From assembly GCF_001293685.1 (NCBI RefSeq), contig NZ_BCAG01000006.1, forward strand, positions 248,001 through 312,000: 64,000 bases of DNA, given 5' to 3'. Positions 1 to 6,206 of the stretch are shown here, piece by piece (position 1 is the stretch's first letter; every line of letters starts with the position of its first letter). Position numbers and translations under genes: made by a program. The notes beneath the pieces were generated by a model that had not been told where the DNA came from, ran no database searches, and saw only the letters and a list, made by a program, of their open reading frames with translations. The DNA is from Desulfatitalea tepidiphila (lineage in GTDB: Bacteria > Desulfobacterota > Desulfobacteria > Desulfobacterales > Desulfosarcinaceae).

Positions 1-349
1 GATCAAAACACCGGCAGGTGCCGTACTTTTCCACGAAGCGGTCATGCAGTTTTTTCGACAGCAGATTGCCCTTCACCAACTTTTTCATGTCTGCGAAATC
101 TGCTTTATCCCGACCGAAAAAGTAACCGATGGCCAGTACACCACCGGAAAGCGCGCCACAGTGACCGTCGCCGGTCAGGCCCACGCCGTCCGCCAAACCG
201 GTGGCCGCCTTGAAAATATCGTCGTTCTGGACCCCCAAGGCATCGAAAATACCCGACAAGGCACATTGCGAACATCCGCCGCCTCGCATTTCGTATTGCT
301 TGGCATTGCTGAACGCCAACTCCAGAATCTCGGCTCGTTCCATTGTCAT
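1..349 (-). CDS. C-GCAxxG-C-C family redox protein, 3' end cut by window edge
   Basis: The first 116 residues are visible; the C-terminus lies beyond position 1. The start at 349 is preceded by AAGGAG with 8-nt spacing. Seen: an N-terminal GGGCSQCALSG motif, a central GDGHCGALSGG motif and a YGTCRC motif near the cut end. This is the cysteine pattern that names the C-GCAxxG-C-C family (Pfam PF09719-like), a group of small cytosolic proteins thought to be redox active or metal binding, with no settled reaction. A second member carrying UGA instead of a Cys codon lies 2.2 kb downstream at 2557-3000, so the two form a Cys/Sec paralogue pair. The family is clear; the function is not. Confidence 0.8.
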   Translation of the reverse strand, partial: MTMERAEILELAFSNAKQYEMRGGGCSQCALSGIFDALGVQNDDIFKAATGLADGVGLTGDGHCGALSGGVLAIGYFFGRDKADFADMKKLVKGNLLSKKLHDRFVEKYGTCRCFD

Positions 350-1686: not shown

Positions 1687-1718
1687 CGCGCACCAGGCCC
1701 TGCGCCGAAGGGCGCGTT
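1682..1718. terminator. Possible shared hairpin between convergent genes
   Basis: AACGCGC after the stop of the plus-strand gene pairs with GCGCGTT just before the stop of the minus-strand racemase, with an inner GCGCC-GAAG-GGCGC hairpin. There is no long T-run on either side, so termination is an inference. Confidence 0.35.
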
Positions 1719-2406
1719 AAAGACAAAACTTCACGATGCTTTCCGCATGGATGGCGGTCGTGTTGAGAAAAGGGATGCCAAATTTGTCTTTCGTGAGGAT
1801 CAAAGGGAGCTCCGTACAGCCTAAAATCACGGCTTCGATGGAATGCCGCTCCATCAATTTTTCTATGATCGCCAGCAACTCCTGCCGGGTCGAATCTTTG
1901 AAAATGCCCAGTTCGATTTCAGAAAAAAGCCGATGATGAATGAGCTCCCGCTCCTCCCTGTCTGGCACGAACAACGTCATCTGCTTGTCGGCAAAGGCCT
2001 TGTTGTAAAAATCCGATTCCATCGTGAACCTTGTGCCCAAGAGCCCGAGTCGCTTAAGACCTCTTTGCTGGGCTGTTTTACAGGTTTCTTCCACGATGCT
2101 CAACATGGGCAGTGGGGACCTGGACCGAATGGCATCGAAAACCACATGGGGCGTATTGGACGCGATCACGGCGAATTCGGCGCCGGCGCGATGCAGGGCG
2201 ACCACCTTTTCCAGAAGCCAATCGGCGAGGCGCTCCAACTCGCCGGCCTCAACCCATCTGGTCAGCGCGGTGAGATCGATACTGTAGATGAGGATTTCCG
2301 GGTAGCCCATCACGGCTTGACGCGCATGGAAAGCGCCGATAATCATTTTATAGTAGTCGACCGTGGATTCCGGCCCGATGCCGCCGACAATTCCAATCTT
2401 TTTCAT
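1717..2406 (-). CDS. Aspartate/glutamate racemase family protein
   Basis: 229 residues of the Asp/Glu racemase superfamily, cofactor-independent enzymes that use two cysteines. Seen: an N-terminal IGIVGGIGPEST motif, an ASNTPH motif carrying Asn/Thr where glutamate racemases have the first catalytic Cys, and VILGCTELPLI with the second Cys near residue 193. The ASNTPH form is typical of the YgeA/RacD branch, so amino acid specificity cannot be read from sequence. The start at 2406 has GGAGG five bases upstream; an ORF opening at 2427 lacks this. Single gene, convergent with 1213-1686. Confidence 0.8.
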   Translation of the reverse strand: MKKIGIVGGIGPESTVDYYKMIIGAFHARQAVMGYPEILIYSIDLTALTRWVEAGELERLADWLLEKVVALHRAGAEFAVIASNTPHVVFDAIRSRSPLPMLSIVEETCKTAQQRGLKRLGLLGTRFTMESDFYNKAFADKQMTLFVPDREERELIHHRLFSEIELGIFKDSTRQELLAIIEKLMERHSIEAVILGCTELPLILTKDKFGIPFLNTTAIHAESIVKFCL

Positions 2407-2556
2407 AAAAACCTCCGAAATAGCCAATCCTTCGACATCAGCCGCGCGTCAGCCAGTTGTATCGTCATCTCATCCGATAAATGTCCCAATGATATTGTCC
2501 CTGACCTCAGATTGGGGAGTAGTTGGCGATCTGCTGAAAAGAGGTTGAGCTGTTTT

Positions 2557-3000
2557 TTACAGGATGCGCTCAAGGATCTCAACCACACTCTGGACGCATG
2601 GGATGCAGGTCTTCTTGAGAAGCTCGTTCTCTCTGAAATATTTCTGCCCTTCTTCCGTAGTCAGTTCACAACCGTTGAGCAATTCTCGGCACATAAACGT
2701 ACCATGCTTCTTGGAAAAAAGATCCATGAGCGCTCTTGTTTTTAAGTAGGTCACCTCCGTTGCGGAACGATCATCGTTGACGCCCCTGCCATATCGCAAT
2801 CCCAAAACCAGGATGCCTCCCGAAATAGCGCCACAAAGCTCCTCTTTTCGAGCCATACCTGCACCAAAGCCACACGCAATCTTTAGAGCAATGTCGTCCG
2901 CCAATTCGCCTTCTTCCCGGAAAGCATAGAGAATCGACTGAGCTCAGTTGTATCCGCTCATGAACTTTTCCGTTGCAACTTTCTCTCTGTACGACATCAT
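2557..3000 (-). CDS. C-GCAxxG-C-C family selenoprotein with in-frame UGA
   Basis: Read through one in-frame TGA (2944-2946), this is a 147-residue protein: MMSYREK at the start, then GYN-U-AQSIL at residues 16-23, LCGAISGG in the middle, FMCRELL, and TCIPC near the C-terminus. In Cys members of the family the UGA position is the conserved Cys of the GYNCAQ-type motif, so selenocysteine (residue 19) is the natural reading. Starting 18 nt after the TGA, GCTTTC pairs with GAAGGC around a CGGGAA loop, the size and place expected of a bacterial SECIS element. The start at 3000 follows GGCAGGAA. Without readthrough only the C-terminal part from an ATG at 2904 could be made, and the N-terminal motif would be lost. 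Selenoproteins of this family are known; SelB and tRNA-Sec are not in this window. Confidence 0.8.
2905..2946 (-). promoter_or_regulatory. UGA codon and candidate bacterial SECIS hairpin
   Basis: TGA at 2944-2946 is followed by an 18-nt spacer and a six-pair stem GCTTTC/GAAGGC (one G-U pair) closing a CGGGAA loop at about 2909-2925. Bacterial SECIS elements sit directly 3' of the UGA with G residues in the apical loop; the match is by eye only. Confidence 0.55.
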
Positions 3001-3073
3001 TTCCTGCCTTTTCTTTGGCCCCGCATGTATCGTTATTGGGTAGTACGTTCCTCGCCATTCCCTGATGCTGGGG

Positions 3074-3550
3074 TTATGCATCACCCTTTTCAAATGCAGC
3101 CCGCTTCATGATTACGGTGGGTATTCCTGCCGGATTGAGCCCGCCATCTTGATTGTCAGTAAAGCCAAAATCCATATACAGCTTTCTTGCAGCCATTCCT
3201 TCAGGAACCGATGCATCAAATGTCTCGACAACGATACTTTCCTGAGGGTTCAACTGGCCAACTGCGAATTCAAGCAGTTGCCTGCCGACCCCCGTTCCAC
3301 GGTAGGGTTTTGAAACGGCAAACCATGCAATTTCGTTTGACTCCCTTGAAATAATAATGCCACCTTTTAAACTGCTCTCTTTTTCAACCTGGTCTGACCG
3401 TATGCAAAATGCTCTGCCTTCTGATATGGCTTGCATTAAAGCCTCCTTGAAGGCTCTTTCATGTGCCATAGGGCCGAACAACGGTTCGACTTCCAATGCA
3501 AGAGAAAGCCATGCGTCAAAATCCTCTAAATTTGAATGATCAACATCCAT
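3074..3550 (-). CDS. GNAT family N-acetyltransferase
   Basis: 158 residues. Seen: a GNAT core with the strand IAWFAVSKPYRG followed by the acetyl-CoA pyrophosphate loop RGTGVGRQLLEFAV (R/Q-x-x-G-x-G/A pattern) near residues 82-96, then IVVETFD and the C-terminal AARKLYMDFGF motif. It transfers an acetyl group from acetyl-CoA to an unknown amine. Codon use looks less GC-rich than the respiratory operon, as for its neighbours 3686-6638. Not in an obvious operon. Confidence 0.8.
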   Translation of the reverse strand: MDVDHSNLEDFDAWLSLALEVEPLFGPMAHERAFKEALMQAISEGRAFCIRSDQVEKESSLKGGIIISRESNEIAWFAVSKPYRGTGVGRQLLEFAVGQLNPQESIVVETFDASVPEGMAARKLYMDFGFTDNQDGGLNPAGIPTVIMKRAAFEKGDA

Positions 3551-3685
3551 GCTTTTGAAGTCCTGTATCAGAAAACATCATAAGGGTTCCCCGGCGCATC
3601 GCTCAATGGAAGCCAGAGCAATACGAAATATCAGCCTACCAAGGCCACCCGCCCTGATTGTCTACTGTAGCAAAATATTCGGGAT

Positions 3686-4225
3686 TCATTTTTGGCTTTC
3701 AAATCCTTCGATCAATGATTCGTATTTGTCGTGAATCATTTTCCGATCAAACTCCCGGAACTCTGCCAGGATCGCCTGATCCTCTTTATCGGTAAAGTAA
3801 GCTCTGGATTTTGGAAAAAAGATTTTATCTTCTTTATCGATATGTCTGGGATAAAAATCGGTTAAAGTCTTAAGGTTGGCTGCGATATCGGTCAAGGCGG
3901 TTTGGTCACCATTCCGGTAGCGAGTATTGGCTTCAACAAGCGCTTTGGTTGTCTGTCGACCGAATACATGTTCCTCGATCAGTTCTTTCATGATTTGGCT
4001 GTCTTCTGGTTTCAATGCTTTTTTACTCAGCTCTCGGAAAAAAATATCCTCTTCCTTTCCGTGATGTGTTCGGTCGGCGTAAACCCTGATGAAATCAACT
4101 GCTATATCCACGAACACAGGATCTACTTCTTGTTTCGATTCGATTTTGGCTAAAACTCCTTTGATGACTGAAAGCATTCGTTCAATCAAACGGTGCTCTA
4201 TCATGAGAGGGCCTCGTGCTTGCAT
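3686..4225 (-). CDS. Hemerythrin HHE domain protein
   Basis: 179 residues, an all-helical hemerythrin-like cation-binding domain. Metal-ligand motifs: IEHRLIERM near residue 9, THHGKEEDIFF near 51, EEHVFGRQ near 82 and PRHIDKEDKIFFP near 123, i.e. H..HxxxE..H..HxxxE as in di-iron HHE proteins. These usually bind O2 or NO or sense iron or oxidative state in the cytosol. The start at 4225 has AGGAGG six bases upstream; the longer ORF to 4306 lacks support. It fits the oxygen-related theme of the window (cbb3 oxidase, ferritin-like protein) but is not linked to them. Confidence 0.85.
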   Translation of the reverse strand: MQARGPLMIEHRLIERMLSVIKGVLAKIESKQEVDPVFVDIAVDFIRVYADRTHHGKEEDIFFRELSKKALKPEDSQIMKELIEEHVFGRQTTKALVEANTRYRNGDQTALTDIAANLKTLTDFYPRHIDKEDKIFFPKSRAYFTDKEDQAILAEFREFDRKMIHDKYESLIEGFESQK

Positions 4226-4321
4226 ATAATGCCTCCTTTTGTTACCTGAACGTCTGCACTTCATGGGTCCCGACTGCGACAATCCGCTGTTGGATTTCCC
4301 GTGCAAGCGATCATTCGGCGC

Positions 4322-4840
4322 CTATTTTTGATTCACCCATATCAGTTTGTTCGGGTCAAAACCCTTTTCTCTCAATACAGCTTTGAAATGACTCTTGAGC
4401 TCTTTTGAAACGGTGGGACTGCGTGACAAAAACCACACATAGGACTGTTTTGAACTGGTTACAAATGCGTATTGATAATCTTGCTTGTCCAATTCGAAAA
4501 TAACGTAGGACCCATAAAAGGGACCGAAGAAGGAAACCCTGAGATATCCAATATTTTCGTTTTCAACAAAATAGGCTTTTCCAATCGATTCTTTCCATTC
4601 ATTTGTTTCCACAGAAAAGCCCCTGTTTTGGACTCGCACCCCACCGTCCTCTCGGGCACTGTATTCGGCTGTGACGGCTTCTAATCCTCTCTCGAAAGAA
4701 TGATCGAATCTTGCGATTTCGTACCACCTTCCAAGGAATTTTTCGAGTTCAAAACCGTTCACTGGCTTGACGGTCGCTGGATACCCAAGACACCCGCATA
4801 GTAGTAGGAACGTGACTGCTGCTATTAGTAGCCGTTTCAT
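4322..4840 (-). CDS. blc: Outer-membrane lipocalin lipoprotein (Blc type)
   Basis: 172 residues. The N-terminal signal peptide ends in a lipobox LLLCGC, so the mature protein begins at Cys17 and is lipid anchored. The lipocalin first motif FLGRWYEIARFDHSFERG (GxW) is followed by alternating strands to the C-terminal SRSPTVSKEL region, the usual Blc layout and length. Blc-type lipocalins bind fatty acids or lysophospholipids at the envelope. Single gene with a roughly 140-bp upstream gap. Confidence 0.9.
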   Translation of the reverse strand: MKRLLIAAVTFLLLCGCLGYPATVKPVNGFELEKFLGRWYEIARFDHSFERGLEAVTAEYSAREDGGVRVQNRGFSVETNEWKESIGKAYFVENENIGYLRVSFFGPFYGSYVIFELDKQDYQYAFVTSSKQSYVWFLSRSPTVSKELKSHFKAVLREKGFDPNKLIWVNQK

Positions 4841-4980
4841 GGTCTTCCTTGCTCGGAAAGTTAATCACATCCAATTTTCCGCCTTTAACCGATCGGGTTT
4901 CAGGGACGCCGTAGCACTAACGTCGCCTTAGGCCCCCAAGTCCTTGGCAGCGGTTGGTTCGATATAATATAGGTTTTAAA

Positions 4981-6042
4981 TTAAGATTGTTTAAGCAAAC
5001 CGTCGTCTATTATCTGTTGGAAATGATCTATGACTGTTTGCTCAATAGGCGTATAGGACATTCCCAGATCTTTCTTGCTGTATGAGTTATCGAATTTTAT
5101 ATGGACGGCAGCATTTTTGGCCACATATTTCCGGGTTAGGCCGTGCATCGGTGCTATGAGCCAGAATAAATATTTGGGAACTTGCCTTATAGGGAATGGA
5201 TATGTATCCCCGAAATGCTTCCGCAACATATTTGCAAGCTCCAGAAGTGTGGCTTCTCGACTGACAATGATGTGTCTCCCGCTTGCTTTTGGGCTGAACC
5301 CTGCCTTAATGTGTGCTGTCGCCACATCGCGGACATCAATAATCCCATTCCACAATTCCGGAACCCCCATTTTATATTTTCCATCGCCAAGTTGAACCAT
5401 GAACTGGATACTCATTGAGTCCTTTCTCTTCGAAAGAGATGGTCCAAGAATCCAACCCGGATTAATTACCAACAGATCCCATTGATCCTGCTCCTTGGCG
5501 ATGGCCCAGGCCTCTTTCTCAGCAATCGTCTTTGAGTAAGGGTAAGGTTGGTGTTCAGCACTGCTCGTTAAGTTCCAATATTTTTCAGTGAAAATACCCG
5601 TTTGGGTCAACTCTATGTCTGCGTTATCACCATAAATCGCCGCAACGCTGCTGGTGAGTACGATGCGTTTCACCGTTGAATTTCTGTTTGCGGACTCAAG
5701 GACATTCCTTGTCCCTTCCTTTGCTGGCCGAATCAATTCTTCTTCCGGATTCCTAATTCCTGTCATAAAAAACGGGGACGCAGTATGAATCACCAATTCG
5801 CAATCGCGCATCGGTCGTTCGAAGCTTTTGATATCCAAAAGGTCCGATTGAAACAGCCTCAATTTTCCTGAGTATTCATTGGCCATGGACGTAAGATGAT
5901 CGACTTTTTTTGAATTCGAAGGGTCTCGAACAGTTGCGTTAACGCAAACTCCCTTTTCCAACAGCCTTTTTATTATCCAGGAAGCGACATAGCCAGTTCC
6001 CCCGGTAACCAATACCGGTTTTGATCTATTGATTTCGCACAT
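4981..6042 (-). CDS. NAD-dependent epimerase/dehydratase (dihydroflavonol-reductase-like)
   Basis: 353 residues of the extended short-chain dehydrogenase superfamily. Seen: the Rossmann motif VTGGTGYVASWI near residues 13-24, TASPFF, the catalytic Ser in VLTSSVAAIYG, and the YPYSKTIAEKEAW catalytic Tyr-x-x-x-Lys motif near 169. The pattern resembles dihydroflavonol/cinnamoyl-CoA reductase-like enzymes, which reduce a carbonyl with NADPH; the real substrate is unknown. The start at 6042 has AGGAGG six bases upstream. Stands alone. Confidence 0.8.
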   Translation of the reverse strand: MCEINRSKPVLVTGGTGYVASWIIKRLLEKGVCVNATVRDPSNSKKVDHLTSMANEYSGKLRLFQSDLLDIKSFERPMRDCELVIHTASPFFMTGIRNPEEELIRPAKEGTRNVLESANRNSTVKRIVLTSSVAAIYGDNADIELTQTGIFTEKYWNLTSSAEHQPYPYSKTIAEKEAWAIAKEQDQWDLLVINPGWILGPSLSKRKDSMSIQFMVQLGDGKYKMGVPELWNGIIDVRDVATAHIKAGFSPKASGRHIIVSREATLLELANMLRKHFGDTYPFPIRQVPKYLFWLIAPMHGLTRKYVAKNAAVHIKFDNSYSKKDLGMSYTPIEQTVIDHFQQIIDDGLLKQS

Positions 6043-6206
6043 GAGCCGCCTCCTTTTTTGCATTGGCTCAATATTGTCGAAAGACAGGCTTCACGGGGAG
6101 CGGCGATCCCGTCCAAGCCTGTGTTGAGTCACCCAATTTGGGTTGAACACCCATCATCTGTGATGTATAGCTTTTTGTACAATAAGCGGAGCCGAGCCGC
6201 GCAGAA

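Follow-up and report, generated by a model that had tools for sequence, protein, structure and literature searches.

A C_GCAxxG_C_C family gene of Desulfatitalea tepidiphila with an in-frame UGA predicted to encode selenocysteine

In a stretch of 64,000 nucleotides of the D. tepidiphila genome (contig NZ_BCAG01000006.1, positions 248,001 to 312,000; the whole stretch is called the window below), the minus-strand frame 3000–2557 is very probably the gene of a C_GCAxxG_C_C selenoprotein, in which the UGA at 2944–2946 would be read as selenocysteine (Sec) by way of a hairpin at 2907–2926. We infer the insertion of Sec itself from sequence comparisons. The selenoprotein interpretation had been proposed from the letters of the window, and it was supported by the Sec machinery of the genome, by an alignment column that holds only UGA or Cys, and by a constrained hairpin that fits the bacterial SECIS model. 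No outcome named beforehand as counting against it turned up. According to the proposed mechanism, the hairpin in the message would recruit SelB with Sec-tRNA, and the ribosome would then decode the UGA as selenocysteine. The selenolate at residue 19 could form a redox centre with Cys56, Cys104 and Cys132, either as a selenenyl-sulfide or as a metal or iron-sulfur site, a step that we put forward less firmly than the insertion of Sec. The features discussed are the following.

2557..3000, minus strand: predicted C_GCAxxG_C_C selenoprotein gene, 147 residues through the UGA (translation; PF09719 and TIGR01909 profiles)
2998..3000, minus strand: likely start codon ATG, where the similarity of the orthologues starts; a second ATG is at 2995–2997
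2944..2946, minus strand: predicted selenocysteine, UGA codon 19 (UGA or Cys in 65/65 family loci read; UGA in 7/7 clade members)
2907..2926, minus strand: predicted SECIS hairpin, 7 pairs, loop CGGGAA (fold and orthologue comparison)
1..349, minus strand: Cys paralogue of the C_GCAxxG_C_C family, running off the window edge (PF09719 65.1 bits; C26 at profile position 3)

Translation of the minus-strand frame 3000–2557 showed that the TGA at codon 19 is its sole interruption, and with TGA read as U the product had 147 residues, a single UGA, and a stop at the end. This through-UGA protein matched PF09719 with an E value of 1.8e-29 (102.7 bits, curated cut-off 27) and TIGR01909 with 86.5 bits (cut-off 47.4), and the UGA lies where the family has its first Cys, the C that opens the name C_GCAxxG_C_C. 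Translation and both profiles thereby confirmed the original prediction of a frame that is open from 3000 to 2557 apart from one UGA at the conserved first Cys. It had also been claimed that standard gene calling would yield the C-terminal part only and miss the redox motif, which proved to be the case: the open reading frame list made with table 11 contains this frame only as a TTG-started ORF of 115 amino acids at 2557–2904, without the first motif. The annotation is corrected accordingly, as ordinary callers would keep 2557–2904 only and lose the selenocysteine. Upstream of the ATG at 3000 the sequence is A/G-rich (..aaaaggcaggaa ATGATG), and the orthologues have similar, non-identical A/G-rich stretches; a putative ribosome site ahead of this ATG is plausible.

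An alignment of 49 sequences, with U written as C, showed that position 19 is invariant, as are C56-G57 and C104, and that C132 is nearly so. The genome of the window has five C_GCAxxG_C_C members, one of them with a TGA. The paralogue at 1–349 had been said to belong to the family and to have Cys at this site, and the profile alignment agreed; the whole gene is locus L013. When other read-through UGAs in the window were collected with a loose filter, 16 were obtained, including codon 19, and the remaining 15 were without family support. The Rfam search of the window gave no match, and ARAGORN found no tRNA in it.

The neighbours on the minus strand at window positions 1717–6063 are an Asp/Glu racemase, a GNAT acetyltransferase, a hemerythrin, a lipocalin and an NAD-dependent epimerase, and a shikimate kinase lies at 423–983; no functional link between the window neighbours and the selenoprotein gene was evident. 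Inspection by eye found the hemerythrin and racemase neighbours retained on the contig of genome G007 and absent from the contigs of G009, G032 and G154, and no conserved gene neighbour or operon partner was found.

The occupancy of column 19 was examined across the family. Among 291 relatives searched, 48 matches reached E 1e-15 or better, and all of these were read together with four paralogues from the window's own genome. One locus (L022; G042:C2:329-3655) was dropped from the column count, being 5'-truncated, carrying a TAG and not covering the column. The 51 loci from this main search consisted of 13 with UGA and 38 with Cys. Eight further places added three UGA and five Cys, four of the eight having been picked for showing TGA. 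Six orthologues from the wider phylum (L111–L116) added six Cys, none with an internal stop; they were found with a Cys-requiring pattern, to which all six loci gave a match, and they were the wider-phylum rows read, ten others beyond L001 and L019 being left out. Altogether, the 65 loci read showed 16 UGA, 49 Cys and no other codon at this column. Thus, the alignment with C-GCAxxG-C-C homologues, in which a non-Cys residue at this position would have counted against a selenoprotein, turned up UGA and Cys only.

The UGA was kept in all seven members of the clade to which the window gene belongs (L001, L017, L018, L019, L020, L048 and L103, from six genomes, one of which has two copies), and the frames of all seven are without any other stop. 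Five of the UGA orthologues are 72–93% identical to the window protein. The pooled pN/pS of the seven UGA loci was 0.32 upstream of the UGA (17 codons) and 0.17 downstream of it, which indicates that both sides of the UGA are under purifying selection in these loci.

A few loci of the family have stops elsewhere. In L104 (G326:C1:1449092-1450063, minus strand), Cys occupies the first column and an in-frame UGA stands just before the third Cys (KKR-U-TTQC); this UGA could be a second Sec site, or it could result from an error or from the gene being a pseudogene. L036 (G222:C243:1-390, at a contig start) likewise has Cys at the first column, and its UGA replaces the Gly codon in the CGA motif, which looks more like error or decay than Sec. 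The truncated L022 is an orthologue of the window gene, and its TAG precedes the KIATGF block.

The stem of the hairpin consists of six pairs, or seven counting one U-G, and its loop CGGGAA begins 24 nt past the UGA. The published bacterial SECIS model, as set out in the part of its source consulted, places the apical loop 16–37 nt from the UGA with a G in the first two loop positions. The hairpin fits this model, and the six pairs, the GG in the loop and the distance of 20–40 nt that had been predicted were all borne out. Single-sequence folding gave nothing unusual when compared with shuffled sequences (z −0.53 and +0.32), and we rejected it as evidence for a SECIS. The hairpin stands above chance because the UGA and the hairpin are kept together in seven orthologous loci.

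Comparison of the orthologues showed that the 19 nt at 2907–2925, GCTTTCCGGGAAGAAGGCG, are identical in six of the six aligned UGA orthologues; no other stretch of at least 8 nt is invariant among the six genes compared. Synonymous choice was frozen in the same place: at positions +6 to +12, a region already singled out when the window sequence was folded by itself, each of the six invariant residues was encoded by a single codon, compared with 13 of 71 residues farther downstream than +18 (Fisher p 1.1e-4). In the stretch separating the UGA from the hairpin none of four such codons was frozen, and over the wider span +1 to +14 the count was 7 of 11 (p 0.0035). These results suggest that the hairpin region is constrained at the nucleotide level. 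RNAalifold also predicted this hairpin, whose basal pair varies between U-G and C-G. In L103, the seventh member, one stem base differs, so that U-G becomes U-A, the pair being kept and Gly being replaced by Ser. Most stem pairs are invariant, and covariation is consequently thin.

Implemented in the same way for every locus, the published SECIS model gave hairpins at −5 kcal/mol or below in 14 of 16 UGA loci, in one of 14 Cys loci and in none of six further Cys orthologues; the sequences are related, and the counts are therefore not independent. The control comprised 14 of the 38 Cys loci, chosen before any fold was seen, plus the six further Cys orthologues; at random places, 6.8% of 1200 passed the same threshold. 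The seven Cys orthologues (L021 and L111–L116) were without the hairpin. Only weak model hairpins were obtained for the UGA loci L031 and L034 (−1.9 and −1.5).

The other UGA branches (L042, L049, L050, L045, L105, L106 and L033) have SECIS-model hairpins unlike that of the window in sequence, which is in line with separate origins. Three of these hairpins have the form GGC-AGTT-GCC, and one is a strong CTGGCCG-TGTA-CGGCCGG.

The Sec machinery presupposed by the original prediction was present in the genome of the window (assembly of 5.6 Mb, 7 contigs, 98% complete). The tRNA-Sec scored 73.4 bits, over the cut-off, with a TCA anticodon as read by eye, and selA (620 bits), selB (374 bits) and selD (380 bits) each exceeded the respective cut-off. 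The selD gene (L010, G000:C1) has an in-frame TGA of its own in the context GAGUASK, and SelD is therefore a second expected selenoprotein of this genome. Among the UGA-bearing genomes, selA was over the cut-off in 12 of 12 tested (G097, G304 and G361 outside the test) and tRNA-Sec in 9 of 13 searched (G304 and G361 outside the search). No tRNA-Sec over the cut-off was found in the incomplete genomes G007 (73% complete) and G008 (64% complete). G032 (97% complete) and G210 (91% complete) gave best scores of 45.9 and 46.0 bits against the Rfam cut-off of 47 and have both the UGA family gene and selA, and their shortfall may reflect either gaps or divergent tRNAs. Since tRNA-Sec was found in 236 of the 291 relatives, the machinery is common among them and its presence is weak evidence; as a discriminator of UGA from Cys genomes it was rejected.

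The possibility exists that the TGA disables the gene, which would then be a pseudogene with a fragment as its sole product or with no product at all. A Cys codon is one base away from TGA and the TTG-started fragment 2557–2904 can be called, but the same TGA in seven loci of six genomes, the purifying selection apparent on both sides of it and the lack of a further stop in seven frames make decay highly unlikely. Judged from the window alone, the TGA could be an error of sequencing or assembly; however, it is found again, linked to the hairpin, in genomes that were assembled separately, and the probability of such an error is close to nil.

It is also conceivable that the UGA is read as Trp, Cys or Arg by near-cognate suppression and not as Sec, low-level read-through of UGA being a general phenomenon. 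The exchange of UGA with Cys only in 65 loci, the SECIS-like hairpin that UGA loci have and Cys orthologues lack, and the Sec machinery of the genome all argue against this, and we give it very little credence. Equally slight is the chance of a regulated stop that would yield a short peptide without selenium and the long selenoprotein with selenium, the gene then being a sensor as much as an enzyme. Read-through in selenoprotein genes is generally tied to selenium supply, but a peptide of 18 residues would be very small and shows no special conservation, and no support for a sensing role was found.

The trees, from which L022, L036 and L104 were omitted, concern the history of the Sec site. 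On the tree of 57 rows from order-level relatives, the Sec label needs six changes, and the starred branches force at least five. On the 20-row tree, for which a midpoint root was used and six other members of the family lie across the root, the Sec clade of the window forms one branch (99/97) among Cys orthologues, and a single acquisition of Sec in the clade, starting from an ancestor with Cys, is therefore the simpler reading. The Cys orthologues are 55–66% identical to the window protein. All seven of them (L021 and L111–L116) have a second Cys at +9 (SFC/TFC), and the residue at +9 is Arg (CGG) in all seven Sec orthologues, where its codon extends across the SECIS stem and loop. We infer that acquisition of the SECIS may have altered the protein at this position. 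The clade is a natural experiment in which Cys and Sec orthologues, side by side, show the effect of gaining Sec and a SECIS, and the family, having undergone Sec/Cys changes at least five times within a single order, is suited to testing when and why Sec replaces Cys.

The AlphaFold2 model, in which Sec was modelled as Cys, is all-helical with a mean pLDDT of 95.4 and a pTM of 0.90, and residue 19 is the first residue of helix 19–26. A selenolate at the N-terminus of a helix together with three conserved Cys would suit thiol/selenol redox work, and the small protein is probably redox-active. The best PDB match in Foldseek was 1h21 (probability 1.00, query TM 0.59, E 0.035, rmsd 5.7; next match E 2.6), the split-Soret cytochrome c of Desulfovibrio desulfuricans, an iron-centre protein whose entry is titled a novel iron centre. 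The profile search aligned the CGA motif of 1h21 to that of the window family with a weak E of 0.48. Searches of solved structures by phmmer with the window protein found no relative, 1h21 included, and those with two paralogues found neither 1h21 nor any other sensible relative. The CxxCH haem motif was not seen in the translation of the window protein. These results point weakly to a resemblance between the predicted fold and that of split-Soret cytochrome c, a likeness that makes a role at a metal centre conceivable. It is unlikely that the family shares both the split-Soret fold and the iron-centre site, with Sec19 ligating an iron or iron-sulfur centre through its selenolate. If this were so, the repeated change of Cys to Sec at an iron ligand would make a naturally occurring series of iron centres ligated by selenium, and no such series is known to be established.

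In the portions of the sources consulted, C-GCAxxG-C-C proteins are listed among prokaryotic selenoproteins with '-' in the Sec-motif column (PMC9312934, PMC13188914), and the later review (PMC13188914) distinguishes two forms of the C-GCAxxG-C-C selenoprotein, the subfamilies being split by the position of Sec. The family name was absent from the text, as searched, of the paper from 2008 that serves as the reference for form 2, and the literature searched contained no text with both 'selenoprotein' and 'Desulfatitalea'. The window protein, which exceeds the cut-offs of both profiles, is in the same family as the catalogued Sec forms 1 and 2 (TIGR01909/PF09719), and the NCBIfam model name already reads (seleno)protein. 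The N-terminal part of the HUGP/GUXX-star fusion selenoprotein (NF045501) matches the window protein with 54.6 bits against a cut-off of 325, but NF045501 has a C-terminal fusion that the window protein lacks. The profile of the DVU_1555 family C-GCAxxG-C-C protein (NF045669) is related, its score of 50.2 bits being below the cut-off of 103. Sec-containing members of the family are already catalogued, and the window gene is a further, well-supported example. According to the part of the report consulted, a member of the family is among the proteins specific to acetone-grown Desulfococcus biacutus (PMC4103992).
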